Made by a program: the position numbers and the translations under genes
Assembly: GCF_000374125.1 (NCBI RefSeq)
Contig: NZ_KB893626.1
Location: forward strand, 248,001-312,000
From: Niabella aurantiaca DSM 17617
GTDB taxonomy: Bacteria; Bacteroidota; Bacteroidia; Chitinophagales; Chitinophagaceae
DNA: 64,000 bases
Direction: 5' to 3'
The notes under the pieces: model-generated
Told to the model about the DNA's origin: nothing
Seen by the model: only the letters and a program-made list of their open reading frames with translations
Database searches by the model: none
Shown here: piece after piece, positions 3,762-54,813 of the stretch
Layout of the letters: the number at the start of each line of letters is the position of its first letter
How positions within the stretch are numbered: the stretch's first letter is position 1

Positions 3762-4634
3762 ATGGAACAGACAGTAACACATAATACCAAGTGGTGGAGC
3801 GGGGGCAAAAGTCCGTTTAACATAGAGTATGGGAAAATAATGATGTGGTATTTCCTGCTGAGCGACTCCTTTACATTTGGAGCCTTCCTCATCTCATTGG
3901 GTACCGTACGTTTTGGATTAAACTACTGGCCGGAGCCCAGTATTGTGTTTAATACCTTCCCGTTTGCGGGCCACGCAAACCTGCCGCTTGCCTTTGTAAG
4001 TGTAATGACCTTTGTGCTGATCATCAGTTCCGTAACCATGGTGCTGGCGGTGCATGCCGGCCATAACCGCGACAGGAAGGGTGTTGAGAAATATCTGATC
4101 TTAACCATCATCGGCGGGCTGATCTTCCTGAGCTGCCAGGCCTGGGAATGGACGCACCTGCTGACCGCTAAAAATCCTGTTCTGGTTGGAGACCATATTG
4201 AAGTAATGGCCCAGCGCAACGGTTTTAACCCCTGGGGAGAAATTGTGCTGCCACAGGATGTGGCCCCGGCTCTGGCAAAGACTTCTCCGGAAACACTGGC
4301 CACGCTGGTGCACGAACAACACCTTTCGCATGCCGGCCACGCAGAGCTGTTAAAAACACCCAAAGACCAGCTGATCCAGTTGCTTTCAAATAGCGAAATG
4401 GTGGTACGCAAACCCGGACCCACTGCTTTTGGCGGTTTCTTCTATGGCATCACCGGTTTTCACGGCTTTCACGTATCGGTTGGGGTGATCCTGCTTCTCA
4501 TCATGCTGATCCAGACAAAAATGGGTGTGTTTGACCGCAAGGGCCACTACCTCATGATCGAAAAGATTGGTTTGTACTGGCACTTTGTAGACCTGGTTTG
4601 GGTATTCGTATTTCTGTGTTTTTACCTTATCTAA
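3762..4634 (+). CDS. Heme-copper oxidase subunit III, long paralogue
   Basis: Second subunit III-like protein, 290 aa from the ATG at 3762. The open frame extends upstream to 3693, but those codons overlap the previous gene and do not look like family sequence. It shares the C-terminal signature YWHFVDLVWVFVFL with the short paralogue. Compared with that copy it carries an extra hydrophilic segment of about 70 residues (roughly residues 130-205) between CQAWEW and GGFFYGITGFHGFHV. The segment contains several His and probably forms an extramembrane loop. Its role is unknown. Confidence 0.92.
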   Translation: MEQTVTHNTKWWSGGKSPFNIEYGKIMMWYFLLSDSFTFGAFLISLGTVRFGLNYWPEPSIVFNTFPFAGHANLPLAFVSVMTFVLIISSVTMVLAVHAGHNRDRKGVEKYLILTIIGGLIFLSCQAWEWTHLLTAKNPVLVGDHIEVMAQRNGFNPWGEIVLPQDVAPALAKTSPETLATLVHEQHLSHAGHAELLKTPKDQLIQLLSNSEMVVRKPGPTAFGGFFYGITGFHGFHVSVGVILLLIMLIQTKMGVFDRKGHYLMIEKIGLYWHFVDLVWVFVFLCFYLI

Positions 4635-4696
4635 AAGGACAGGGGTCAAAAGGGGCTCCCCTTATTTTTCAAAAAGAATTAATATTAATATAAGCT

Positions 4697-5191
4697 ATGA
4701 GCAATCATTACGATCCAACAAAAGATATATCGCCTTCTGCTGCCTATCCTGAAGTAAGCTTTACACATCATGCAGACGATGGTACGTTTAAAAAACGCGT
4801 AATCCGTACAACGGTGATTTTAAGTGTTTTGACGGTATTGGAATTGGCATTAGGATTTACCATTTATGCGCTGCATAAAGGTGAGCCCAGCCATGCGTTG
4901 CTGCTTTTTATAAAAGGGGTGGTTTGTATCTTAACCCTGGGTAAAGCCTATTATATTGTTTCGGTATTCATGCACCTGGGCGATGAGATACGGAATTTTA
5001 TTATGACCATAGTGATCCCGTTGATGCTGTTTATCTGGTTCATTATTGCCTTCCTGGCAGACGGGCACTCCTATAAAATGCTGCGGAACGAATATGATCC
5101 TTATTTTAAAGAGTCCACAACGCCTTCCGGTCATCCGGTCATTCCTTCTGATGCACACAAATACAATAATCAGAAGGGGCAACGGCAGTAA
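4697..5191 (+). CDS. ctaF: Cytochrome c oxidase subunit IV (caa3 type)
   Basis: A 164-aa protein with a hydrophilic N-terminus of about 30 residues followed by three membrane helices, matching the prokaryotic subunit IV family that stabilises the CuB site. The segment LTLGKAYYIVSVFMHLGDE is typical of the family. It is the last gene of the oxidase operon; a hairpin terminator follows at 5215-5238. Confidence 0.9.
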   Translation: MSNHYDPTKDISPSAAYPEVSFTHHADDGTFKKRVIRTTVILSVLTVLELALGFTIYALHKGEPSHALLLFIKGVVCILTLGKAYYIVSVFMHLGDEIRNFIMTIVIPLMLFIWFIIAFLADGHSYKMLRNEYDPYFKESTTPSGHPVIPSDAHKYNNQKGQRQ

Positions 5192-5214
5192 GAAAGAACA
5201 TACTTTAGATACAG

Positions 5215-5238
5215 AAGGACCGCTGAATGGCGGTCCTT
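5215..5238 (+). terminator. Hairpin terminator after the oxidase operon
   Basis: Nine-base-pair perfect stem AAGGACCGC / GCGGTCCTT with a six-base loop, followed by a short T-rich stretch. It lies 23 nt after the ctaF stop codon. The T tract is short, so termination may be incomplete. Confidence 0.7.
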
Positions 5239-5319
5239 TATAGTTGGCATTGTTTTCCCGTTTTGGAGCACCGGAACGAGTGCCGGCATAGCCCGCTTTC
5301 TGCGGATAAAGAGCACAGT

Positions 5320-5922
5320 ATGATTGAGCATGCAGAAGATAAATACGAAAAAGAGCTGCGGATCATAGACCTGCGCAGGGCAAACGGATTTGCGCTCCTC
5401 ACCGTTTTGATAGCACTCGTTATTTTTGGTATTCCCTACTACTGTATATGGAGCGGTCAGTTTACCCCGGACCATATAAAAGAAACGTTCAGGCATCTTA
5501 CAACCCGGTACAAATACCTGCTGGTCCTGATGCCGCTGGTTATGGTGATTGCTGGCATTGTTTTTCACGAGCTGATCCACGGACTTACCTGGTCGCTGTT
5601 CACCCGCAGAGGCCACCGGTCCATAAAATACGGGATTCTCTGGAAGTATGCAACACCCTATTGTCATTGCAAAGAGCCGCTGGAAGTACGGCATTATGTG
5701 TTGGGGGCGCTGATGCCGGCCATTGTTTTGGGCGTATTGCCCTCGATAGCAGCAGTCATTACGGGGTGCTTTTATTTGTTGGTATGGGGTATTTTTTTCA
5801 TCATGGGAGCTACCGGCGATTTTATGATCGTCCACCTGCTGCGCAATGAAGAAAAAGGAGCCCTGGTTCTGGATCATCCCAGCGAGGCGGGCTGTTATAT
5901 TTACAGGGCGATCCCGGAATAG
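5320..5922 (+). CDS. DUF3267 family membrane protein (putative zinc metalloprotease)
   Basis: A 200-aa protein with four predicted membrane segments. The motif FHELIHG gives an HExxH site at residues 83-87, which is characteristic of DUF3267 and suggests a membrane-embedded zincin; peptidase activity in the family is inferred and not established. I chose the ATG at 5320, since the open frame reaches 5227 but the extra residues overlap the terminator and look non-coding. It stands alone between the oxidase operon and the convergent hemJ. Confidence 0.8.
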   Translation: MIEHAEDKYEKELRIIDLRRANGFALLTVLIALVIFGIPYYCIWSGQFTPDHIKETFRHLTTRYKYLLVLMPLVMVIAGIVFHELIHGLTWSLFTRRGHRSIKYGILWKYATPYCHCKEPLEVRHYVLGALMPAIVLGVLPSIAAVITGCFYLLVWGIFFIMGATGDFMIVHLLRNEEKGALVLDHPSEAGCYIYRAIPE

Positions 5923-6028
5923 TTGCAGGCAACATCCCGTTTGAGCACTGGGGTGTCCGTTTGTATGGAGCGGCCGGGAACATAAAGTAAAATGAGACGA
6001 AAGAAGCCGTGTTTCAGCGGGGAGACAA

Positions 6029-6583
6029 TTATTTTCCTTTGTTCCGGATGCGTTTATAAATGCGAATCGCCAGCATCAGGATAAAGATCAGCAGGATCAT
6101 ACCCACCAGGCCCCAGAGAACACTGATCTCCTTTTTTACAACGACCAGCATCACAATGGCAACCAGGAAAATAGTGGCCACCTCGTTCCACATCCGCAGC
6201 TGGTCCGATGTATATTTATAGTTGCCGGCCATTTGCTGTTTAAAAATACGGTGGAGGGAATAGTGATAAGCATATAGGAGCAGAACGAGCACGAGCTTCA
6301 AAAGCAGCCAGAACCCTTCAGGTTTAAAAAGCACTGCGGTCCAATTTCCCTTTAGCAATACCGAAAGCCCCATCACAAGCGTGATGATCGCAGAGGGCCA
6401 GGTGATACCATACCAAAGAGGTTTCATCATTTTTGTGAACTGGTGATGCAGCAGATCCCGGGCGGGCTGCGGCTGTTCGTTAGCCTCTACGTTATAGATA
6501 AACAAACGCGGCATATAAAACAGGCCGGCAAACCAGGTAACAACAAAGATAATGTGGACCGCTTTTAAATATAAATAAGCCAA
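6029..6583 (-). CDS. hemJ: Protoporphyrinogen IX oxidase HemJ
   Basis: Small membrane protein of 184 aa with about four or five helices that oxidises protoporphyrinogen IX to protoporphyrin IX, the step before ferrochelatase. The N-terminus AYLYLKAVHIIFVVTWFAG is the HemJ signature with the conserved His; LLKLVLVLLLYAYHYSLHRI carries further conserved residues. I placed the start at TTG 6583, which gives the usual family length. The frame is open to an ATG at 6685, but those 34 residues (MAPTLLFKKTD...) are polar and unlike HemJ. No HemG or HemY is in the window, so this is the likely oxidase for the heme cluster downstream. Confidence 0.88.
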   Translation of the reverse strand: MAYLYLKAVHIIFVVTWFAGLFYMPRLFIYNVEANEQPQPARDLLHHQFTKMMKPLWYGITWPSAIITLVMGLSVLLKGNWTAVLFKPEGFWLLLKLVLVLLLYAYHYSLHRIFKQQMAGNYKYTSDQLRMWNEVATIFLVAIVMLVVVKKEISVLWGLVGMILLIFILMLAIRIYKRIRNKGK

Positions 6584-7043
6584 AAGAGTTGTATTTAAAA
6601 TAAAGAACCTGTTTTCAGAACAACTAAGATAGTCGCTTTCTTTGTTCCCGGGATCAGTTTTTTTAAAAAGAAGGGTTGGGGCCATTGCCGGAGCGCCTGT
6701 CTTAACCGATATCGATCACTGATCTTGAAACAGACCGGCGGCAATGGTTCTGTATACTTTTCCGATGCTGAACAAACCGGATCCCGGGAAAGGATGTTCT
6801 AAATGACCGGTATTTTTGATCCGAGAACGCTTTAAAAACATCAAAATATTATATTTTTTAGAGAAGAGTGCTTCGGCTCATTCCTTTTTCAGCCCTTTTT
6901 TTGTATTAGAATGAGAATATATATAATTTTGAACTCCTGAAAATCGAAAGCAGGAGCATTCAAAGTACGGTCTTCAAACATCCGGTGCTTCCGGTAGCTT
7001 TTCTCAAATCCGTGCCGGACATTAAAAATATATATGAGCACGC
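6584..7043. other. Intergenic region between hemJ and the hybrid kinase
   Basis: About 460 nt separate the divergent genes. The left part could be read as a HemJ N-terminal extension (to 6685), which I do not favour. The right part is AT-rich and carries a well-formed Bacteroidota promoter at 6901-6931. I see no other gene or RNA here. Confidence 0.6.
6901..6931 (+). promoter_or_regulatory. Bacteroidota-type promoter for the hybrid kinase
   Basis: A -33 element TTG at 6901-6903 and a perfect -7 box TAATTTTG at 6924-6931, separated by 20 nt. This fits the TTG / TAnnTTTG consensus known for Bacteroidota sigma-A. It predicts a transcript start near 6938 and a leader of about 105 nt. Confidence 0.65.
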
Positions 7044-44486: not shown

Positions 44487-46271
44487 TTACACAGAAGCCT
44501 GCCGGGTTTCCTGCTGCTCGAACTGCATTTTATGCAGGCGTGCATAGAACCCGTTTTGCAGCATCAGCTCCTCATGCGTGCCCATTTCTACCAGAACGCC
44601 TTTGTCCAGCACCATTATTTTATCTGCCTTGCGGATGGTACTCAACCGGTGGGCGATGACAATGGAGGTACGCCCCTTTACGAGTGTATCGGTAGCTTTT
44701 TGGATGAGCAGCTCACTTTCCGTGTCGATCGAGGAAGTGGCCTCATCCAGGATCAGGATGGAAGGATCATACAACAGGGCGCGGATAAAAGAAAGCAGCT
44801 GCCGCTGCCCCAGGGACAAAGTAGCCCCCCGTTCTTTTACATTATAATCATACCCACCCGGCAGCCGCATGATAAAATCGTGCATATCGATCATTTTTGC
44901 GGCGGCAATGACCTGCTCCCGAGAAATGTGCGGATTCCGGAGGGTTATATTATCCAGAACGGAGCCGGAAAACAGGAATACATCCTGTAGTACCACCCCG
45001 ATATTTTTCCGCAGGTATCCGGGCGATAATGTGTGAATGTCTGTTCCGTCTATGCGGATACTGCCTTTCTGGATCGTATAAAAGCGGTTCAGCAGGTTCG
45101 TAATGGTCGTTTTTCCACTGCCGGTATGACCTACAATGGCGACTGTTTGCCCTGGCTGAATATGGAAGCTCAGGTCTTTCAGCACCCATTTGTCGTTTAC
45201 ATAAGCAAAAGAAACGTCATCGAAATCAACAGCGCCCGAAACACGGTGCGCCGGGTCCTTATAGCCCCCGGCGGGCGGTACATCGGTATCCGGGTTATCC
45301 AGCACCGAAAAGATACGGTCGCTGGCGATAATGCCCATCTGAACGGTATTGAATTTATCGGCCAGCATCCGTAACGGGCGAAAAAGCAGGTTCAGGCAGA
45401 GAATAAAGGAAACGATCACCCCCTGCTGGCCCTGTTTTAACTCCAGGGCCTCCCGGGCCGTGTACCAGATCACCAGCCCTATCGACAATGCCAGCACGAT
45501 TTCGATCACGGGGAAAAAGACCGAATAAGCAAAGATGGAGCGGATATTGGCATTGCGGTGTTGCCTGTTGATCGCATTGAATTTTTCAAATTCCTTTTTT
45601 TCCGCATGAAAGGCCTGCACCACGCTCATGCCGGACAGGTGCTCCTGAACAAAGGCATTGAGCGCTGCCACTGCATTCCTGACCTTGAAAAAAGAGCGGT
45701 TGATGCTTTCCTTAAAATAATAGGTGGCAATGATCATGATGGGGAAAGGAATCAGTGCAATGAGCGTGAGCTTCCAGTCGATCCAGAACATATACAGCAA
45801 TACACAAAGGATCGAAAGCAGGTCGGCAATAATAGGGATCAGCCCATCGGAAAATATCTCGTTAATGGACTCAATATCGTTGATGGTACGGGTGGTGAGG
45901 GTTCCGATGGGCGTGCGGTCAAATTGCCGGAGATTCAATCGGAGGATCTTGTTGTAGACCGTATCCCGCATATCTTTTACTACAGCCTGCCCGAGCCAGG
46001 CCGTTGTAAAAGAAAAAGAAAAACGCATGGCTGTTTCTATGAGGATGATCACCAGCTGGATCAGCGTTACATATACAACCATCCGGGGTATGGAATGTGT
46101 GATGTAATCGTCTACCGTAAGCTGGATCAGCATCGGGCGTACCGGGGTGATCACTGCCAGAAGAATTGCCAGAATAACAGACAGGTAAAATTTTCTCTTG
46201 TACGGAGCCGCGTATTGAAAAACCCGCCTGACCTTTGAAATATCAAAAAAAGCTTTTTTTGAATCCGCCAT
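44487..46271 (-). CDS. ABC transporter, fused permease and ATPase (MsbA-like)
   Basis: A 594-aa half-transporter that would function as a homodimer. It has six membrane helices (about residues 20-320), then an ATPase with Walker A GHTGSGKTT, Q-loop VLQDVFLFSG, signature LSLGQRQL, Walker B ILILDEATSS and switch His in VIAHRLST. Export of lipid or peptide is likely for this type; the substrate is unknown. It is divergent from the ROK gene. Confidence 0.93.
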   Translation of the reverse strand: MADSKKAFFDISKVRRVFQYAAPYKRKFYLSVILAILLAVITPVRPMLIQLTVDDYITHSIPRMVVYVTLIQLVIILIETAMRFSFSFTTAWLGQAVVKDMRDTVYNKILRLNLRQFDRTPIGTLTTRTINDIESINEIFSDGLIPIIADLLSILCVLLYMFWIDWKLTLIALIPFPIMIIATYYFKESINRSFFKVRNAVAALNAFVQEHLSGMSVVQAFHAEKKEFEKFNAINRQHRNANIRSIFAYSVFFPVIEIVLALSIGLVIWYTAREALELKQGQQGVIVSFILCLNLLFRPLRMLADKFNTVQMGIIASDRIFSVLDNPDTDVPPAGGYKDPAHRVSGAVDFDDVSFAYVNDKWVLKDLSFHIQPGQTVAIVGHTGSGKTTITNLLNRFYTIQKGSIRIDGTDIHTLSPGYLRKNIGVVLQDVFLFSGSVLDNITLRNPHISREQVIAAAKMIDMHDFIMRLPGGYDYNVKERGATLSLGQRQLLSFIRALLYDPSILILDEATSSIDTESELLIQKATDTLVKGRTSIVIAHRLSTIRKADKIMVLDKGVLVEMGTHEELMLQNGFYARLHKMQFEQQETRQASV

Positions 46272-46359
46272 GGGCCTGCAAGATAATTATTCTGGGCGCA
46301 ATTTTTTTTAAAAAAGAGCCGTAAACTTGTATATCTTTCGTGCTTCAAAAAGAAATCTT

Positions 46360-47052
46360 ATGGCATCCATAACACTGGCTATTGATATCGGCGGCTCCAA
46401 GGTAAAAGGGTGTACCCTTAATGAGCAGGGCGCCATTGTGCAGGAATATACCAAACTGCCAACCCCCGTTCCGGCCACGCCGGAAAACCTTGTGCACACG
46501 ATAAAAGAGCTGGTGAAAGATTTCCGGTATGACCAGGTATCTGCCGGGTTCCCGGGCTATGTAAGAAATAATATTGTGTACACGGCGCCTAACCTCGGCT
46601 CCCAGTACTGGCATAAAATTGATCTGGCCAGCCTTCTGACAGCGGGCCTTGGAAAGCCTGCCCGGGTGGTAAACGATGCGGATATGCTGGGGCTGGGCTG
46701 TATTGCCGGGAAAGGCTTTGAAATGATGATTACCCTGGGAACCGGTTTTGGCACATCATTTTTCCTGGACGGGAAGCTTCTGCCCCACCTGGAGATCGGT
46801 CAGCATCCCTGCTTTAATAACAAGACGTATGACCAGTATATTGGTCAGCGGGCCTATGACGACCTGGGGAAAAAGGAGTGGAACAAACGGCTGCACGCCG
46901 TATTGCGGATCTTACAAACGACGTTCAACTATGACCATTTATTCATCGGCGGCGGGCTGGCAAAAAAAATAACGCTGGAGCTGAAAGAGAATATGACCAT
47001 TGTTTCCAATATCGATGGTATCGATGGCGGGGTACGGTTGTGGAAGCAATAA
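46360..47052 (+). CDS. ROK family kinase, polyphosphate-glucokinase-like
   Basis: A 230-aa sugar kinase. The N-terminal phosphate-binding motif LAIDIGGSKVKG and the catalytic Asp in VVNDADMLGLG are clear, as are TLGTGFGTSFF and EIGQHP. The short length and the lack of the long Cys-rich zinc motif of classical ROK repressors resemble polyphosphate glucokinases, but the phosphate donor is not certain. The start is ATG 46360. Confidence 0.85.
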   Translation: MASITLAIDIGGSKVKGCTLNEQGAIVQEYTKLPTPVPATPENLVHTIKELVKDFRYDQVSAGFPGYVRNNIVYTAPNLGSQYWHKIDLASLLTAGLGKPARVVNDADMLGLGCIAGKGFEMMITLGTGFGTSFFLDGKLLPHLEIGQHPCFNNKTYDQYIGQRAYDDLGKKEWNKRLHAVLRILQTTFNYDHLFIGGGLAKKITLELKENMTIVSNIDGIDGGVRLWKQ

Positions 47053-47224: not shown

Positions 47225-49426
47225 TTAAATATCTTCTTCGCCCGTTTCTTTTTTGTAGGCTTTGATAAACAGGGCTCCCAGGTTTTTATACGGGGGAATA
47301 TAGTCCTCCATTCCGGTAATATGCGCAGCCGCCCTGAACTCCTTCCAGAAAGGGATCCAGTCAATGTCTTTTTTGTTACGCAATGTTTCCAGGAAGATCC
47401 GGATAAATGGTAAGTTAATATCCCGGTAACCGGTTTGCTTGGACGAAATAATGTGTGCGTCCGACGACCTCCTCAGGATAGAATCGATCAGGTTAAAGCC
47501 GCCGCAGGAGCCCATGAACACCACCCGGTTCGTAGGGCTTACATAGCCTACGCTGGTCATGGCATGATAGCTATGCCCCCTGTGGAAGGTAACGGTCGGA
47601 GACAGATTGTTTTTTTCAAGATATTCTTCCATGGCTGTTTGTGCCACGTAATCCTGGTCTTCTTCGTTGGGCAGCGGGCGGTTGGCATACACATAAACCG
47701 GTACCCCGCTGGTGGTCTTGGCCACTACAAATTTGCTGTTGCTCTGGTCCACCCTCCATTTAGGATCGTTTGTGAAAGTGCGCACGAAAATATCGAAGTC
47801 CATTCTCCCGTCCTCATCCCCGTAAAAGAACATCTGGGTGATGACTTCCCCCTTTTCATTGCTCAGCTTTGAAAACGGTACCGAGTAAACCGGTGGAATA
47901 CCCAGGTCTTTGGTGAGGTTGACGTTATTGGCTGGGTTGGCAGACATGAACAGCTTGTAAAGAATGGTATAGATGGCGATCCCTCTTTGATTGCCGTTGC
48001 GCCGGTTCAGATCCAGGTTCTTCTTAATGTTCGTCAGCATTTGCTTTGCCAGGTCCGGGAGGGTTTCATAAAGGCTGGCATAGGAATCGGCCACATCCAC
48101 CCCGTCTTCCAGCCCTTTGGATTTTTCCAGTCCGCTTGCAAAGGTTACCATCAGGTTGCGCGCATCATTATCATTCTTAAATGTCGAAAAAAAGTTTTTC
48201 AGCGTGTTATAGGATGCTGCCTGGCTGATGAATTTGCGGTAATGGTCAAATGTAAGGCTCAGCAGGAGCGAATCCCCGCGGTTGTTCATTTTACTCATCA
48301 TCAGCGGGTACACGCCGCTCACGTAGCTGCTGGTATAGATCAGCCCATCCGTGAGCACTGCCAGGTAGTACAGCTCCTGTGCATTCAGCGGCTGCAAACA
48401 CCTGAAACGAACAGCATTAGGCGACTCGTGCAGCCCGTTGATCTCAGAAACAAAGTCTTCTGCGGCTTTCCGTTCCAGGCGTTTGGTCAGTTCTGCAAAT
48501 CCGATCGCAGTATCTCCGCTCAAGGCTCTTTTTGCATAATCTACCTGGGTGTTTACCAGTAACCGGTAGTATTTATAACGGTCGTCCTTGGCCGCATCCA
48601 GCTGGGCCGTAGTTATTTTGCCCTTTACCAGGTTATCAAGAAAAGGGAAGTAGATCTGTCCGCTTTTCTGTTGAGACATGGCTACCACCGTTTTTACAAA
48701 ATTGTCATTTTGTATGGACCGGATCTTGTAACCCAGTTTATTATTGGCCTGGGCATATGAGTACAGTTGCTCCGGGTATTGCCGGCCCATCGTTTTGATG
48801 AGGCTGTCTGCCACAGGGGCATCCGGGTAGTCGGTAAGCGCTACAAAGGCTTTATGGGGATACTGGGTACAATATTTCACCAGCAGGATATCTTTTATTT
48901 GTTTGTAGCTGGAATTTTCCTCAAATATGCGGGGAAGGGTGGCGGTGTACACAATATCATAAGGAAAATAGGAGATATAGGACACCAGCGATTCTTTTTT
49001 CTGATTGGCGTCGATCAGTTTTTTATAAAGTGCGATGATCTGGTCAAAATGGGTGGGCCGCACCTCCTTCTTTAGCCATCCGCTGCGCATGTGGCTCAAA
49101 ATGGCTACCAGACCGGAGAGATAACCCGTTTTCATCCGGTTATCGATGCCGGAATTGGTCTCAATTTCATACTGCAGCCAGTCTACCTTTGAAGTGACCG
49201 CTTTTGTAGCGATCTGGCTGGCACTTTCATTATTGTCGATGATAAAACGGTCATCGGCCTTGCCATCGCTGCCCAGCAACAGCTTTTGCTGTTTATTTAT
49301 ATTATCGTGTGAAAGCTGCCGGGTGATGGGAACCGTATATTCGGGTATATCGCCATCTCCGGTCTGTGCAAAAACCTGGGTTATGGATGCGATGATCAAT
49401 CCTAAAACAAAAGCCGATCTTTTCAT
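47225..49426 (-). CDS. Large secreted protein, putative clan CD (caspase-like) peptidase, copy 1
   Basis: A 733-aa protein with a signal peptide (MKRSAFVLGLIIASITQVFAQ). The long N-terminal part (about residues 25-480) looks helical. From about residue 520 there is an alpha/beta region: TQMFFYGDEDGRMDF, YVYANRPL, then VTFHRGHSYH (His615) and, 26 residues on, VVFMGSCGGFNLIDSIL (Cys641), followed by DAHIISSKQTG. A hydrophobic strand ending in His-x-Gly, and another ending in Ser-Cys-Gly-Gly, resembles the His/Cys dyad of clan CD peptidases. This is my inference; the protein has no function I recognise. It is a tandem paralogue of the upstream gene (49528-51780). Confidence 0.8.
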   Translation of the reverse strand: MKRSAFVLGLIIASITQVFAQTGDGDIPEYTVPITRQLSHDNINKQQKLLLGSDGKADDRFIIDNNESASQIATKAVTSKVDWLQYEIETNSGIDNRMKTGYLSGLVAILSHMRSGWLKKEVRPTHFDQIIALYKKLIDANQKKESLVSYISYFPYDIVYTATLPRIFEENSSYKQIKDILLVKYCTQYPHKAFVALTDYPDAPVADSLIKTMGRQYPEQLYSYAQANNKLGYKIRSIQNDNFVKTVVAMSQQKSGQIYFPFLDNLVKGKITTAQLDAAKDDRYKYYRLLVNTQVDYAKRALSGDTAIGFAELTKRLERKAAEDFVSEINGLHESPNAVRFRCLQPLNAQELYYLAVLTDGLIYTSSYVSGVYPLMMSKMNNRGDSLLLSLTFDHYRKFISQAASYNTLKNFFSTFKNDNDARNLMVTFASGLEKSKGLEDGVDVADSYASLYETLPDLAKQMLTNIKKNLDLNRRNGNQRGIAIYTILYKLFMSANPANNVNLTKDLGIPPVYSVPFSKLSNEKGEVITQMFFYGDEDGRMDFDIFVRTFTNDPKWRVDQSNSKFVVAKTTSGVPVYVYANRPLPNEEDQDYVAQTAMEEYLEKNNLSPTVTFHRGHSYHAMTSVGYVSPTNRVVFMGSCGGFNLIDSILRRSSDAHIISSKQTGYRDINLPFIRIFLETLRNKKDIDWIPFWKEFRAAAHITGMEDYIPPYKNLGALFIKAYKKETGEEDI

Positions 49427-49457
49427 AAAAAAACATACTAAAAATTCATGAGATGCG

Positions 49458-49465
49458 CAAAACTA
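49458..49465 (-). promoter_or_regulatory. Possible -7 box between the two large paralogues
   Basis: TAGTTTTG on the minus strand matches TAnnTTTG exactly, 32 nt upstream of the 733-aa gene. No clear -33 TTG is seen. It would allow the downstream copy to be expressed separately. Confidence 0.35.
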
Positions 49466-49527
49466 CCCCCTTTTTTCGCAGTAAGGCAGTTTGCGGTGAT
49501 CTTTTAACAAAACCAAGACGCAAAAAA

Positions 49528-51780
49528 TCAGATATCGGTTTCCCCGGTCTCTTTTTTATAGGCTTTTATGAAAATAGCTCCCAGGTTTTTATAGGGAGGG
49601 ATGTAATCTTCAAACCCCGGAACATTCGCCCGGCCTTTAAATTCTTTCCAGAAGGGGATCCATTCTATGTCTTTTCCCGTACGAAGTTTCTCTGTTAACA
49701 ATAAAAAGAAGGGTTTGTTGATGGCGGTTTTACCAATTTGCTTGGAGGCGATGATATGAGCATCCTCAGACTTCCTTAAAATAGAGTCGATCAGATTAAA
49801 GCCGCCGCAGGAGCCCATAAAGACCAGTTTGGAGCTGGGCGACATATATTCGATGGTAGACGGCGCATAATAGCTGTGACCGCGGTGAATGGTAACGGTT
49901 GGATAAAGGTTATTTTCTTCCAGGTAGGCATTTAGTGCCCGCTGCGCTTTGTCGTCCTCGCCTTTCAGCTCATTCAGCGGGCGGTTGGCATAGATCGATA
50001 CGGGATTCCCTTTCGTTGATTTGATCACCACCCATTGTTTGTTGCTGCGGTCGATCTTCCAGTTGGAGGGGTTGAACATGTTCAGAAAGCCATTAAAAAT
50101 GTTGCGCCCGTCCTGGTCACCGTAAAAAAACACCTGGCTGATCACTGCTCCTTTTTCGTTTGCCAGGCTTTTAAAGCTGACATCATATACCGGGGGGATC
50201 CGCAATTCCTTGGTAAGGTCGATCCGGTTGGAGGAATCCGCCGAAAGGAAAAGATAATTCAGGATGTTGTAAATAGCTACTCCTTTCTTATTGCCTGCCT
50301 GTTTGTTCCGGTTGAGGTTTTCTTTTACATCGTTCAGCATCTGGCCGGCCAGCTCGGGGAGCGTTTCATAAACGCTGGCGTACGAGTCGGCCACGTCTAC
50401 ACCGTCTTCCAGCCCTTCTGTTTTCTCCAGGTTGCTGACAAAGGAGGTCATCAGCTTTTTGGTATCTTCTTTATCGGAAAAGGTGCTCAGAAAATTTTTA
50501 AGGGTATTGTAAGAGGCCGCCTGGCTCAGAAATTTCCGGTAATGATCAAAGTTGACGTTTTTCAGCAATTCATCCCCTTTATTACCGGCTTTCCGCATCA
50601 TCAGCGGGTACACCCCGTTGGTGTAGCTGCTGGTATAAATAAGACCGTTGGTCAGCACTGCTACATAGTACAGCTCCTCTGCACTCAGCGGCTGTATCGC
50701 GCGAAAGCGAATGGCATCGGGACGCTCATGCAGTCCGTTGATGGGAGCAACGAATTCATCTTTGGCTTTTTGTTCCAGTTTGCCCAAAAGGCTCCTGTGA
50801 CCGATTGCCGTATCACCGGCGGAAGCGCGCCTGGAATACTCAATCTGGGTCTGCACCAATAGCCGGAAATACTTTACCGGATTGTTCTTAACGGCATCGA
50901 TATCCTTAATGGTCAGCTTGCCGGTAGCAATGAGGTCCAGGAAGGGAAAGTAGAACTGCCCGCTTTTGTTGTCGCTCCGGGCCATGCTCACGATGCTTTT
51001 TATCAGCGGATCGTCTTCTATGTTCTGGATCTTGTAGCTGAGTTTATTGTTGGCCTGTGCATAATCATAAAGCTGCTGCGGGTATTTGTGGGCCATTACC
51101 CGTATCAGGCTGTCTGCATGCGGAGATTCGGGGTTGGTCCTCAGGGCGGCGAATGTTCGTTGCGGGTATCGCTCGCTTAGTTTCAGCAGAAGCAGGTCCT
51201 TGGTATCGTTGTAGCCCGGATTGTCCTTAAAGACCCTGGGCAAAATAGCGGTATAGGCAATATCGTAGGGAAGAAAACGGATCACCGGTGCCACAGACCG
51301 TTTATTCCGGTCGGCTTCTATACACTTTTTATAGGTAGTGATGATCTGCGGCAGGTAGGCCGCATCCACCTGACTTCGTCTCCATCCGGTTTTTACGTAG
51401 CGGAGAATATCGGAGATCCCTGACAGATAATTTGCCTTAAGTCGCTGATTCATAGCGGGGTCTGACTCGATTTCATATTGCAGCCAGTCTACCTTTTTGG
51501 TAACGGCATCGCTTACGGCACTGTTTACCTGGCTGTCAGAAGAAACGTTGAGCAGGGCATCGGTCTTTCCATCGCTGGCCAATAAGGCTTTCTGGTCGGC
51601 ATCTACCGTTTCATGCAGTTTCAGGCGGATCATGGCAGGTGTGTAGGCCGGGATGGTATCCACCACTACTTCAACGGGAGCCGGCTGGCGCTTTTTTTTT
51701 CGTTTGGATCGTCTTTGTGCATCTACTTGTACGGATAATAAAAGCAGTAAAAGAAAGGGTATCAGTTTCTTTATATACAT
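49528..51780 (-). CDS. Large secreted protein, putative clan CD (caspase-like) peptidase, copy 2
   Basis: A 750-aa protein with a signal peptide (MYIKKLIPFLLLLLLSVQVD) followed by a very basic stretch (RRSKRKKKRQ). It aligns with the downstream paralogue along its length, and in the last 122 residues the two agree at about two thirds of positions. The putative dyad is conserved exactly: VTIHRGHSYY (His632) and LVFMGSCGGFNLIDSILR (Cys658), again 26 residues apart, then DAHIIASKQIG. Both end KKETGEXDI. The start is ATG 51780; a longer frame to 51828 would put residues in front of the signal peptide. No function is known to me. Confidence 0.8.
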   Translation of the reverse strand: MYIKKLIPFLLLLLLSVQVDAQRRSKRKKKRQPAPVEVVVDTIPAYTPAMIRLKLHETVDADQKALLASDGKTDALLNVSSDSQVNSAVSDAVTKKVDWLQYEIESDPAMNQRLKANYLSGISDILRYVKTGWRRSQVDAAYLPQIITTYKKCIEADRNKRSVAPVIRFLPYDIAYTAILPRVFKDNPGYNDTKDLLLLKLSERYPQRTFAALRTNPESPHADSLIRVMAHKYPQQLYDYAQANNKLSYKIQNIEDDPLIKSIVSMARSDNKSGQFYFPFLDLIATGKLTIKDIDAVKNNPVKYFRLLVQTQIEYSRRASAGDTAIGHRSLLGKLEQKAKDEFVAPINGLHERPDAIRFRAIQPLSAEELYYVAVLTNGLIYTSSYTNGVYPLMMRKAGNKGDELLKNVNFDHYRKFLSQAASYNTLKNFLSTFSDKEDTKKLMTSFVSNLEKTEGLEDGVDVADSYASVYETLPELAGQMLNDVKENLNRNKQAGNKKGVAIYNILNYLFLSADSSNRIDLTKELRIPPVYDVSFKSLANEKGAVISQVFFYGDQDGRNIFNGFLNMFNPSNWKIDRSNKQWVVIKSTKGNPVSIYANRPLNELKGEDDKAQRALNAYLEENNLYPTVTIHRGHSYYAPSTIEYMSPSSKLVFMGSCGGFNLIDSILRKSEDAHIIASKQIGKTAINKPFFLLLTEKLRTGKDIEWIPFWKEFKGRANVPGFEDYIPPYKNLGAIFIKAYKKETGETDI

Positions 51781-51964
51781 AAAACACAAGTTACACGGCC
51801 TGTTTAAGAATATTTGGTTAAAATTCATGCAAAATTTATACCATGATACCAGACTGCTGAAAACGAGCTGTTTCCCGTGTCATTTTATGGTAAGCAGAAA
51901 ATTAATTTATTATTAACTCTGCACAATCCGGATCGTTAAAAGCCTCAGATCAAAAAAATACGGT

Positions 51965-51989: not shown

Positions 51990-52667
51990 ATGGAGCACAA
52001 GGGCTATAAAATACTGGTGGCGGATGACGAACCCGATATCCTGGATATTTTATCATACAACCTGATAAAAGAAGGCTATGATGTTACCACGGCCAGGGAT
52101 GGTGAGGAAGCCATTGACCAGGCCAACAGGGTTAAGCCGCACCTGATCGTTCTGGATATGATGATGCCCAAGAAAACCGGGGTTCAGGTTTGCCAGGTAC
52201 TAAGAGCACAATCGGCCTTTAAAGATACACTGATCATGTTTCTTACGGCATTGAATGATGAATCTACCCAGATCCGCGGGTTGGAAACGGGTGCCGATGA
52301 CTATGTAAACAAACCGGTAAGCCCAAAAGTATTGCTGAGCAGGGTAAGCGCTTTGCTGCGCCGCATTCATAAAGAAGACAGCAAAGTTATCAAAGTAGGA
52401 CCGGTGACCATTGATCCTGAGAAATTTGTGGTGCTGAATGGCGACAAAGAGATTATACTGGCAAAAAAAGAATTTGAGCTGCTTTACCTGCTGGCCTTAA
52501 AGCCCGGACGTGTATTCCTGAGAAATGAAATTTTAAACGCTATCTGGGGAAATGATGTAATTGTGGGAGACCGTACCATTGATGTGCATATCCGGAAAAT
52601 AAGACAGAAGCTGGAGCTGGATTGCATTACAACGGTGAAAGGGGTCGGGTATAAATTTGAGGTATAA
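51990..52667 (+). CDS. OmpR/PhoB-family response regulator
   Basis: A 225-aa two-domain regulator. The receiver has the acidic pocket DDE, phospho-Asp56 (IVLDMMMPKK), Thr in FLTALND and Lys in NKPVSPK. The C-terminal winged helix contains KEFELLYLLALKPGRVFLR and RTIDVHIRKIRQKLE. The kinase gene follows 38 nt downstream. The pair resembles PhoB/PhoR, but no phosphate genes are nearby. Confidence 0.95.
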   Translation: MEHKGYKILVADDEPDILDILSYNLIKEGYDVTTARDGEEAIDQANRVKPHLIVLDMMMPKKTGVQVCQVLRAQSAFKDTLIMFLTALNDESTQIRGLETGADDYVNKPVSPKVLLSRVSALLRRIHKEDSKVIKVGPVTIDPEKFVVLNGDKEIILAKKEFELLYLLALKPGRVFLRNEILNAIWGNDVIVGDRTIDVHIRKIRQKLELDCITTVKGVGYKFEV

Positions 52668-52705
52668 CAGGATGCCGGTTTCCGGAATTATTTAATGGAT
52701 TGATC

Positions 52706-53755
52706 ATGTTTGACCCTAAAAACCTTTCTCCGAGAAAATTATCGTTCTATACAGCACTGGGTCTGGCCACTCCCATCAGTATTATCGAGTACATCCTGGA
52801 ACAGAAATGGCAGCCCGCCGTTGCTTCGTTCTTTGTAGTGCTGGTTGGCGGCTACCTGCTGATAAGTTTTGTGCTGGAGCGGTTTATTTACCGCAAGATC
52901 AAAGTGATCTACAAGTTTATTTATCAAACAAAGGCTACGCGGCGCCAGGAAACTTATTATAAATACATCCTTCCCAAGAAAAGTCTTGACGAGGTGGCGG
53001 TTGACGTAGAGAACTGGGCCCAGGAGAATCAGCAAAAGGTGGCTACGCTGCAGGCTAATGAAGAATTCCGGAGAGAATTTTTACAAAATCTTTCCCATGA
53101 ATTCAAAACGCCGGTTTTTGCCATCCAAAGTTATGTGGAAACCCTGCTGAACGGCGACATGACCGACCCCCTGATCAACCGGAAATTCCTGGAGAAAACG
53201 TCTGCCAATGTAGAGCGCCTTACCAACCTGTTACAGGATCTGGATGAGATCTCCAGCCTGGAGCGTGGGGAGATTACCATTGTGAAGCGGAACTTTATCA
53301 TACAGGACCTGCTGAAGGATTCTTTTGAAAGTATTTCCATTAAGGCAGAGCAAAAGAATATACACTTCAGCATTAAGAAAGGCTGCGAGGCTCCGATTGT
53401 AGTAAATGCTGACAAGGAAAAGATCCGTCAGGTAGTGATCAACCTCCTGGAAAATGCTATAAAATATGGAAAGATCAATGGAAGCATCAAGGCCGGGATC
53501 TATAAAACGGATGACAAAAGGATACTGGTGGAGCTGAGCGATGACGGAGTGGGGATCACCGAAAAAAGCCTGCCCAGGATCTTTGAGCGTTTTTTCCGCA
53601 CAGAAACAGGGCGCAGTATGGATGTTACCGGCAGCGGGCTGGGCCTGGCGATCTGCAAGCACATTATTGAGGCCCACCAGCAAACGATCCATATCCGCAG
53701 TACGGAAAATGTAGGCACCACCATCGGATTTACATTGGCGGCAAAGAAAGATTAA
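52706..53755 (+). CDS. PhoR-like sensor histidine kinase
   Basis: A 349-aa kinase with two N-terminal membrane helices (about residues 10-58) and almost no periplasmic loop, so the signal is likely membrane-borne or cytosolic. The phosphoacceptor is H131 (NLSHEFKTPVFAIQ); ATP-binding boxes are VINLLENAIKYG, LSDDGVGI and GSGLGLAICKH. ATG 52706 is preferred to TTG 52700. It is the partner of the preceding response regulator. Confidence 0.94.
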   Translation: MFDPKNLSPRKLSFYTALGLATPISIIEYILEQKWQPAVASFFVVLVGGYLLISFVLERFIYRKIKVIYKFIYQTKATRRQETYYKYILPKKSLDEVAVDVENWAQENQQKVATLQANEEFRREFLQNLSHEFKTPVFAIQSYVETLLNGDMTDPLINRKFLEKTSANVERLTNLLQDLDEISSLERGEITIVKRNFIIQDLLKDSFESISIKAEQKNIHFSIKKGCEAPIVVNADKEKIRQVVINLLENAIKYGKINGSIKAGIYKTDDKRILVELSDDGVGITEKSLPRIFERFFRTETGRSMDVTGSGLGLAICKHIIEAHQQTIHIRSTENVGTTIGFTLAAKKD

Positions 53756-53835: not shown

Positions 53836-54813
53836 CTACTTGCTAACGGGGATAAGTTTAACGGGTGTAACACTGTATCCTTTTTTTCTTAGTGCAGGAA
53901 TCAAACAGGAGGGGTCTCCCAAAAGATGCCCGGCACCTACAACGATAAACGCATTTCCTTTTTTGAGTTCAGGGATCAGTTTTTTTAACCAGGTTTTGTT
54001 TCTTTCAACGTGAACTTTAACCGCCTTGTCCTTTAAAACATAGTCGAAAGTGGCAGCGGCATAATATTGTTTCATGGCCTTTACTACACCATAGTATCTG
54101 TCTTTTTTTAGTGCGGCGGAGTCAGAATGAGTTAACAGGTTAAAGGTTTTGATATATCCCACAATACTTCTTGTATAAAAATTGCCTGCCAGAACGCTTT
54201 GAGACAGGAAACGGGCGTCATCCAGTTGAAGTATGGGTTTTTTTGATGTGGCCATCAAAGCATTTATTGCTTCATCAAAATTGGGGGAAGCCTGCCGGTG
54301 AAGCCCGGATCTTATTTGTATTGAATCATAAATTATGTTTTCCAATACCCCAAGATCGGATACCTGCATTATCAAATTGGTATCGGCGACATTTATTATT
54401 TGTGAAGGCCTCTTTTTTAAATCAAAAGGTAGTTCAAAAAAATCATCTAAGTTAAAATGCCTTACAAAAAAATCATCAATCATTGCACTGTCCTTCCCAA
54501 ACCATTCTTTGAATGACTTCTTGGGAAGTTCATTGAAAGAGGTAATAAATTTTTGAGCCTCAACACTATCGGCGAGGCCGAGGGTTTCACAGGCATAGAG
54601 CCTGCAATTGGCCAGCAGGTCCAGAATCCTGGTGAATTTGTAAACAAACGAATCGGCTCTTACGGGATGCATACTACCAAGGAGGTGAGAGGTATTGCCT
54701 GTTTGGGGATCGGTTATTTCCCACAATACGGATTCTGTAAGAATCTTTTTTTTGCCTTGTGCATGTATCAAAAAACTGCAGCAGATCAAAATGAACGTAA
54801 AGCAGGCTTTCAT
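53836..54813 (-). CDS. TraB/GumN family protein
   Basis: A 325-aa secreted protein (signal peptide MKACFTFILICCSFLIHAQ) with the TraB/GumN pattern: SVLWEITDPQTGNTSHLLGS near the start and NAFIVVGAGHLLGD near the end, where the paired conserved His/Gly motifs lie. Relatives are proposed metal-dependent proteases, but activity is unproven. It ends next to the KAS gene on the same strand. Confidence 0.85.
   Translation of the reverse strand: MKACFTFILICCSFLIHAQGKKKILTESVLWEITDPQTGNTSHLLGSMHPVRADSFVYKFTRILDLLANCRLYACETLGLADSVEAQKFITSFNELPKKSFKEWFGKDSAMIDDFFVRHFNLDDFFELPFDLKKRPSQIINVADTNLIMQVSDLGVLENIIYDSIQIRSGLHRQASPNFDEAINALMATSKKPILQLDDARFLSQSVLAGNFYTRSIVGYIKTFNLLTHSDSAALKKDRYYGVVKAMKQYYAAATFDYVLKDKAVKVHVERNKTWLKKLIPELKKGNAFIVVGAGHLLGDPSCLIPALRKKGYSVTPVKLIPVSK

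Follow-up and report, generated by a model that had tools for sequence, protein, structure and literature searches.

Two adjacent genes in the genome of Niabella aurantiaca DSM 17617 encode paralogous proteins that share a histidine motif and a cysteine motif near their C-termini, and the locus raises the question of whether these proteins are exported cysteine peptidases of clan CD, the clan of caspases and separase. The genes lie in a stretch of 64,000 nucleotides, the whole of the DNA analysed, which is referred to below as the window.

The tandem genes and their products

The two open reading frames described in the initial annotation are both present on the minus strand. The features of the pair, with the basis of each assignment, are as follows.

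47225-49426, minus strand: copy 1 (P0001), secreted protein of 733 aa (open reading frame with translation; model)
49367-49426, minus strand: signal peptide of copy 1, residues 1-20, probably cleaved ahead of Q21 (sequence; helix 2-19 in the model)
47897-49327, minus strand: helical domain of copy 1, residues 34-510, without predicted beta strand (AlphaFold secondary structure)
47228-47863, minus strand: C-terminal alpha/beta domain of copy 1, residues 522-733 (AlphaFold models, VIA-align)
49528-51780, minus strand: copy 2 (P0002), paralogue of 750 aa (open reading frame with translation; comparison with copy 1)
51718-51780, minus strand: signal peptide of copy 2, residues 1-21 (read from the sequence)
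49531-50208, minus strand: C-terminal domain of copy 2, residues 525-750 (alignment A3)

The copies are 57% identical across 709 aligned residues. An upstream ATG at 51828 is a possible alternative start for copy 2, which would yield a protein of 766 aa. Each protein begins with a hydrophobic stretch that resembles a signal peptide and has A-Q at its end, in keeping with the signal peptides first proposed for the pair, and a hydrophobic N-terminal core is present in 77 of 82 family members. The layout of copy 1 is thus a signal peptide, an all-helical domain and a C-terminal domain whose modelled class is caspase-hemoglobinase-like.

Conservation of the His-Cys motif

The active-site positions predicted for the two copies are listed below.

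47501-47593, minus strand: active-site block of copy 1, VTFHRGHSY...VVFMGSCG, residues 612-642 (predicted)
47573-47575, minus strand: codon of H618, predicted catalytic histidine of copy 1 (invariant in 82/82; RGHS in 180/180)
47504-47506, minus strand: codon of C641, predicted catalytic cysteine of copy 1 (invariant in 82/82; 180/180)
49804-49896, minus strand: active-site block of copy 2, residues 629-659 (predicted)
49876-49878, minus strand: codon of H635, predicted catalytic histidine of copy 2 (comparison with relatives, codon place)
49807-49809, minus strand: codon of C658, predicted catalytic cysteine of copy 2 (comparison with relatives, codon place)

Both copies contain HRGHSY and MGSCGGF, and DAHII(S/A)SKQ follows the motif in each, just as the initial annotation reported. 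H615 (H632 in copy 2) stands 26 residues before C641 (C658), and the second histidine of the motif, H618 (H635), stands 23 residues before it. The further claim that this is the best-conserved block between the copies holds in part: among 30-residue windows, those starting at 635-637 tie for the top (87%) with the window starting at 704, whereas at 50 residues the starts 680-684, 361-363 and 328-330 score higher (76% vs 70-72%).

Across the alignment of 82 sequences, 18 query positions are invariant, seven of which (R616, G617, H618, S619, G639, C641 and G642) fall within the 28 residues 615-642. The hypergeometric probability of such clustering is P ~1.3e-6, a value that is descriptive only, the sequences being related. 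A wider scan covered 181 distinct C-termini, or 180 once the interrupted fragment L043 was left out, and every one of the 180 complete C-termini retains both RGHS and the cysteine; these had been made non-redundant by exact C-terminus only, and near relatives are therefore counted several times. This strict conservation of histidine and cysteine is as found for clan CD. The H618-C641 spacing is 23 residues (24 inclusive) in all 140 members measured. In L133, measured separately and counted by eye, it is 22, and L061 reads GGCGG, where the pattern is taken to slide by one (in a row with a 19-residue gap) and the cysteine is present.

H615 had been put forward as the catalytic histidine, and on this point the present data lead elsewhere. 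It is replaced by Asn in seven of the 180 members, and the family tree implies at least three changes at this position, so that H615 is very unlikely to be catalytic and was discarded in favour of H618, which never varies. A comparison of clan CD (PMC4357240) reports a conserved glycine beside the catalytic histidine in all the families that it covers; G617-H618 is invariant in 82 of 82 sequences, and H615 has no adjacent glycine, which leaves H618 as the only histidine of the motif that fits this rule. The predicted catalytic pair is likely H618-C641.

Sequence-database searches

Neither protein has a convincing match in Pfam, NCBIfam or PADLOC, where only sub-threshold rows were returned, and PDB sequence searches gave no relative of known structure for either. 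No clan CD family of Pfam was matched by the two window proteins, nor does one appear among the best 25 of 41 families listed for the 82 domain sequences. Specifically, CHAT (PF12770), Peptidase_C14 (PF00656) and Peptidase_C11 (PF03415) each gave no match in the full-length window proteins (E <= 10) or in the C-terminal domain of copy 1 (E <= 1). For separase (C50), no Pfam separase family was matched and no separase chain was returned by the PDB sequence searches at E <= 10. No sequence test joins the proteins to any named family. In open papers, a literature search on the motif letters or on caspase-like or CHAT proteins in these bacteria found no description.

Two matches were considered and set aside. 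Arylmalonate decarboxylase (Amdase) gave a weak Pfam match in three of 82 members (best E 0.0029), which was read as a shared strand-turn pattern; in L009 it spans residues 617-660, overlapping the cysteine strand. The designed helical cages that matched in the PDB (E 0.00067) correspond to the helical part only.

Predicted structure of the C-terminal domain

The AlphaFold model of full-length copy 1, built on the 82-row alignment, has a pLDDT of 93.5 and a pTM of 0.82. It contains helices only from residue 34 to approximately residue 510, followed by an alpha/beta domain with strands at 528-534, 557-560, 566-571, 577-582, 612-616, 635-638 and 658-662 and helices between them. When the C-terminal domain is modelled in isolation the same fold is obtained (pLDDT 92.9, pTM 0.90). 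In both models H618 is placed just after strand 612-616 and C641 just after strand 635-638, two consecutive strands, which is the position given for the clan CD dyad in PMC4357240. The clan CD core was taken as a sheet of order 2-1-3-4 with helices 1-3; the order of elements in both models, beta-alpha-beta-beta-alpha-beta-alpha-beta-alpha-beta-alpha, fits clan CD and is also Ras-like.

When the full model was compared with known structures by VIA-align, the top rows were SAVED-CHAT with Z 9.4 (8tl0), separase with 8.6 (5fby) and C11 with 8.1, followed by GTPases at 7.7, where rows below Z 8 may reflect only a shared arrangement. The isolated domain yielded SAVED-CHAT at 9.1 (8tl0) and C11 at 8.7 and 7.9, then 7.6. 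The best row exceeds the small GTPases by a modest 1.5-1.7 Z units. Foldseek against the PDB gave no match at E <= 0.001 for the full model or the domain, and plain Foldseek puts small GTPases first (for the full model, these or SHP2 and HflX). In the BFVD search, a viral clostripain-type C11 model ranks third (E 2.5e-3, prob 0.98), and its query TM-score of 0.46 is the highest among the best 50 matches listed.

The domain was also compared by HHalign with 35 profiles, namely CHAT (from relatives' CHAT domains), C14, C11 and 32 unrelated neighbour families. CHAT ranks first with cysteine aligned on cysteine, a weak match (E 0.008, probability 4.9%). For C14 the residues align out of register, and this comparison was not used as support; C11, whose profile holds only six sequences, was set aside at a low rank.

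The initial annotation had named a model of the C-terminal domain as the way to check its clan CD reading. With histidine and cysteine after consecutive strands and clan CD chains in the top VIA-align rows, that reading is supported, although the margin over GTPase folds is modest and Foldseek lists GTPases first. On these models, the domain is likely of the caspase-hemoglobinase-like class.

Comparison with known clan CD systems

Separase (MEROPS C50) has a helical N-terminal region followed by a single C-terminal caspase-like catalytic domain, according to PMC4626109, and the model of copy 1 resembles this layout in that residues 34-510 are all helical and an alpha/beta domain follows; this is a resemblance and not membership. 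The ctSPD structure 5fby is also the second VIA-align row (Z 8.6). The proteins differ from separase in being bacterial, exported and much smaller (733 aa), with no detectable sequence similarity and no known inhibitor partner here. Separase also shares with them a short His-Cys spacing and a G-H / M-G-C motif.

The TPR-CHAT protein Csx29 and the SAVED-CHAT proteins offer a second likeness, as they combine a helical or sensor body with a C-terminal caspase-like protease. The Csx29/TPR-CHAT rows of VIA-align reach Z 7.1-7.4 but with an rmsd of 11.5-19.3 Å. Unlike the CHAT systems, the proteins studied here have a signal peptide, no Pfam CHAT match and no CRISPR partner seen, and the model lacks a second (pseudo) caspase domain. 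The dyad of Csx29, H615-C658 in its own numbering, is 43 residues apart according to PMC10028731, compared with 23 here. In the same two sources, the helical regions of separase (PMC4626109) and Csx29 (PMC10028731) bind partners and control the site.

The clostripain-type C11 peptidases iotapain and PmC11 are, as proposed for the present pair, secreted clan CD peptidases of Bacteroidota, and the C11 family also figures among the structural matches (VIA-align Z 8.1 with the full model, 8.7 and 7.9 with the domain, and the third-ranked viral model of BFVD). They differ in that Pfam Peptidase_C11 is unmatched here. C11 peptidases are not known to have a helical body before the catalytic domain, and their His-Cys spacing is longer.

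Putative S1 pocket and other conserved residues

PMC4357240 assigns the S1 residues of clan CD to helix 1 or loop 1 and to loops 4 and 5. After strand 1 of the present domain, D537 is kept in 80 and D539 in 79 of the 82 sequences; after strand 5, K663 and Q664 are each kept in 80 and N671 in all 82. By position, D537, D539, K663-Q664 and N671 weakly suggest that the S1 pocket is charged and might accept a basic P1 residue. As a separate observation, the nearly invariant D-x-D-G after strand 1 (residues 536-540, G-D-E-D-G) resembles a calcium-binding loop, and weak EF-hand matches occur in two of the 82 members.

Conservation is not confined to the C-terminal domain. Four residues of the helical domain, N330, H333, R340 and T365, equal the dyad in invariance across the 82 sequences, and a peptidase reading leaves them unexplained. 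The full invariant set of that domain also includes L332, and its R-F and T-S positions persist as far as the Azospirillum relatives described below; it is possible that the set forms a surface contacting a partner or the active site.

Genomic neighbourhood

The neighbours considered here are listed with the evidence for each.

44487-46271, minus strand: ABC exporter with membrane and ATPase domains in one chain (Pfam ABC_membrane, ABC_tran; synteny)
51990-52667, plus strand: OmpR/PhoB-type response regulator, divergent from the pair (Pfam Response_reg, Trans_reg_C; synteny)
52700-53755, plus strand: histidine kinase, a conserved neighbour (Pfam HisKA, HATPase_c; hydropathy; synteny)

Hydropathy predicts two membrane helices in the histidine kinase, lying close together and joined by a short loop. 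Synteny was assessed over 99 loci, in which some genomes are seen twice and seven loci come from outside the host's family. In 80 of the 99, a counterpart of the window's response regulator or histidine kinase lies divergently just upstream, and an exporter like that of the window is the next downstream gene in 58 and lies within three genes in 64. None of the seven loci outside the host's family has the divergent kinase/regulator pair. In loci without the exporter and ATP synthase genes, the kinase pair usually stays. Among the best response-regulator matches, identity to the regulator of the window is 63-97% (74 loci, coverage over 70%), and hence the regulators and kinases look like one orthologous pair. 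Given this conserved synteny, a functional link between the protease-like genes and the two-component pair is plausible.

Two further genes were noted in the region. A ROK-family sugar kinase gene (46327-47052, plus strand) lies between the pair and the ABC exporter, and is found in the same place in four of 38 named-genome loci (L010-L013). Beyond the kinase gene, a TraB/PrgY/GumN-family protein is encoded at 53836-54813 on the minus strand (Pfam E 6.9e-15). A promoter and terminator scan of the region performed no better than on shuffled sequences.

Distribution of the family

The closest named relatives are in Niabella (Chitinophagaceae) genomes, with 92% identity for copy 1. A search with a 31-row alignment detected members in 187 of the 195 genomes sampled from the host's family (163 of 167 good genomes). 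In the host's own order, 53 of 149 genomes match, including one short weak match (G928). Another family of the same class yielded 32 of 38 genomes, including a 19-residue match (G751), and the order of that other family 60 of 97, a set that overlaps many of the 38. A single-sequence search of the class gave eight of 198 genomes, and only 15 of 395 matched phylum-wide, one short weak match (G245) included.

Outside these groups, full-length relatives occur on four Azospirillum plasmids, in each case under the annotation hypothetical protein. These are 20-22% identical to copy 2 in the full alignment and have HRGHSY and GSCGG at the same spacing. In three of the four plasmids (L273, L274 and L275, at about 4390-6606) the relative is flanked by a DUF1194 gene and a LysE-family transporter, with ethanolamine ammonia-lyase genes nearby. 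A mobile-element origin was considered and rejected: tblastn found no relative in viral contigs, phage records gave no match at E 1e-5 (two weak Listeria phage rows appear at E 0.1), and the plasmid matches are only those of Azospirillum.

Several families of the order have a second paralogue of roughly 1000-1200 aa. In the three loci read closely, it adjoins the gene of about 700 aa and has extra helical-type sequence in front; the N-domain motif is largely lost, and the C-terminal motif is intact. These tandem paralogues of about 1050 aa, from other families of the order (L163 7165-10395, L164 6334-9435, L165 2974-6213), contain a Pro/Lys/Glu-rich linker in two of three cases, and neither of the two scanned has a Pfam match. 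Some copies in other Niabella genomes are split into at least two frames (L039 5935-8123; L045 6112-8206; L047 5782-8123; L043 5899-8192). L039 and L047 break at the same place, for which a shared frameshift, a pseudogene and a long-read error all fit.

Discussion

We consider it probable, if far from assured, that the pair represents a family of cysteine endopeptidases, not annotated before, that are periplasmic or exported in some other way, with a build like that of separase and TPR-CHAT and the dyad H618-C641. The family appears to be new, the kind of protease it would represent (the caspase/separase group) is known, and the activity is putative. The data themselves show the secretion signals, the family and its conservation, the predicted secondary structure with histidine and cysteine after consecutive strands, and the synteny. 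Fold class, catalysis, specificity, regulation and role are all inferred here, the fold from modest structural scores. Under this model, the signal peptide would export each protein, and the cysteine (C641; C658 in copy 2) would act as the nucleophile, activated by the histidine (H618; H635). The S1 pocket would be lined by D537 and D539 after strand 1 and by K663-Q664 and N671 after strand 5. As in separase and TPR-CHAT (Csx29), the helical body may pick the substrate or keep the site inactive. The conserved divergent kinase/regulator pair would tie expression, or the signal, to an envelope-sensing circuit.

An invariant histidine and cysteine are enzyme-like, and are also what would be expected of a caspase-hemoglobinase-like domain that uses them for transpeptidation, ligation or transamidation, or solely for self-processing; clan CD folds include transamidase relatives. 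We regard such non-hydrolytic use as unlikely, since nothing in the data suggests a second substrate, nor is one hinted at by the two-component system, ABC exporter and ATP synthase that are conserved nearby. It is quite unlikely that the proteins are structural or signalling components whose caspase-like domain is past cleavage, its conserved residues serving for binding. Loss of the dyad would then be expected, yet RGHS and the cysteine persist in every complete C-terminus, and the paralogues of about 1050 aa keep them even with a decayed N-domain motif. What speaks for a non-cleaving protein is that N330, H333, R340 and T365 match the dyad in invariance, and that non-catalytic domains of this kind exist, CHAT1 of Csx29 being termed a pseudo-caspase in PMC10028731.

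A further alternative is a Ras-like or other Rossmann-type alpha/beta domain that only resembles the caspase fold and in which histidine and cysteine arose convergently. The best Foldseek matches of the domain are mostly small GTPases, and Ras topology shares its order of elements. However, no P-loop is visible after strand 1 (FFYGDEDG), clan CD chains top the VIA-align results for both models, and the invariant residues occupy clan CD active-site positions; we hold this alternative to be highly improbable.

Beyond the exported cysteine endopeptidase that we favour, a more specific role may be proposed, although it is itself rather unlikely as stated: a separase-like protease with a regulatory function, exported and near-core in Chitinophagaceae and related Bacteroidota, that would cleave a specific envelope protein in a circuit with the divergent kinase and regulator. 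Such a circuit, if present, would be previously unrecognised. If true, the architecture known from separase in chromosome segregation and from TPR-CHAT in CRISPR-linked immunity would also occur in an exported form, in a protein encoded in nearly every sampled genome of the host's family (187 of 195) and missed by Pfam and NCBIfam. With a defined predicted catalytic pair and a conserved regulator next door, these proteins may lead to a step of proteolytic signalling that is new for the envelope of Bacteroidota.
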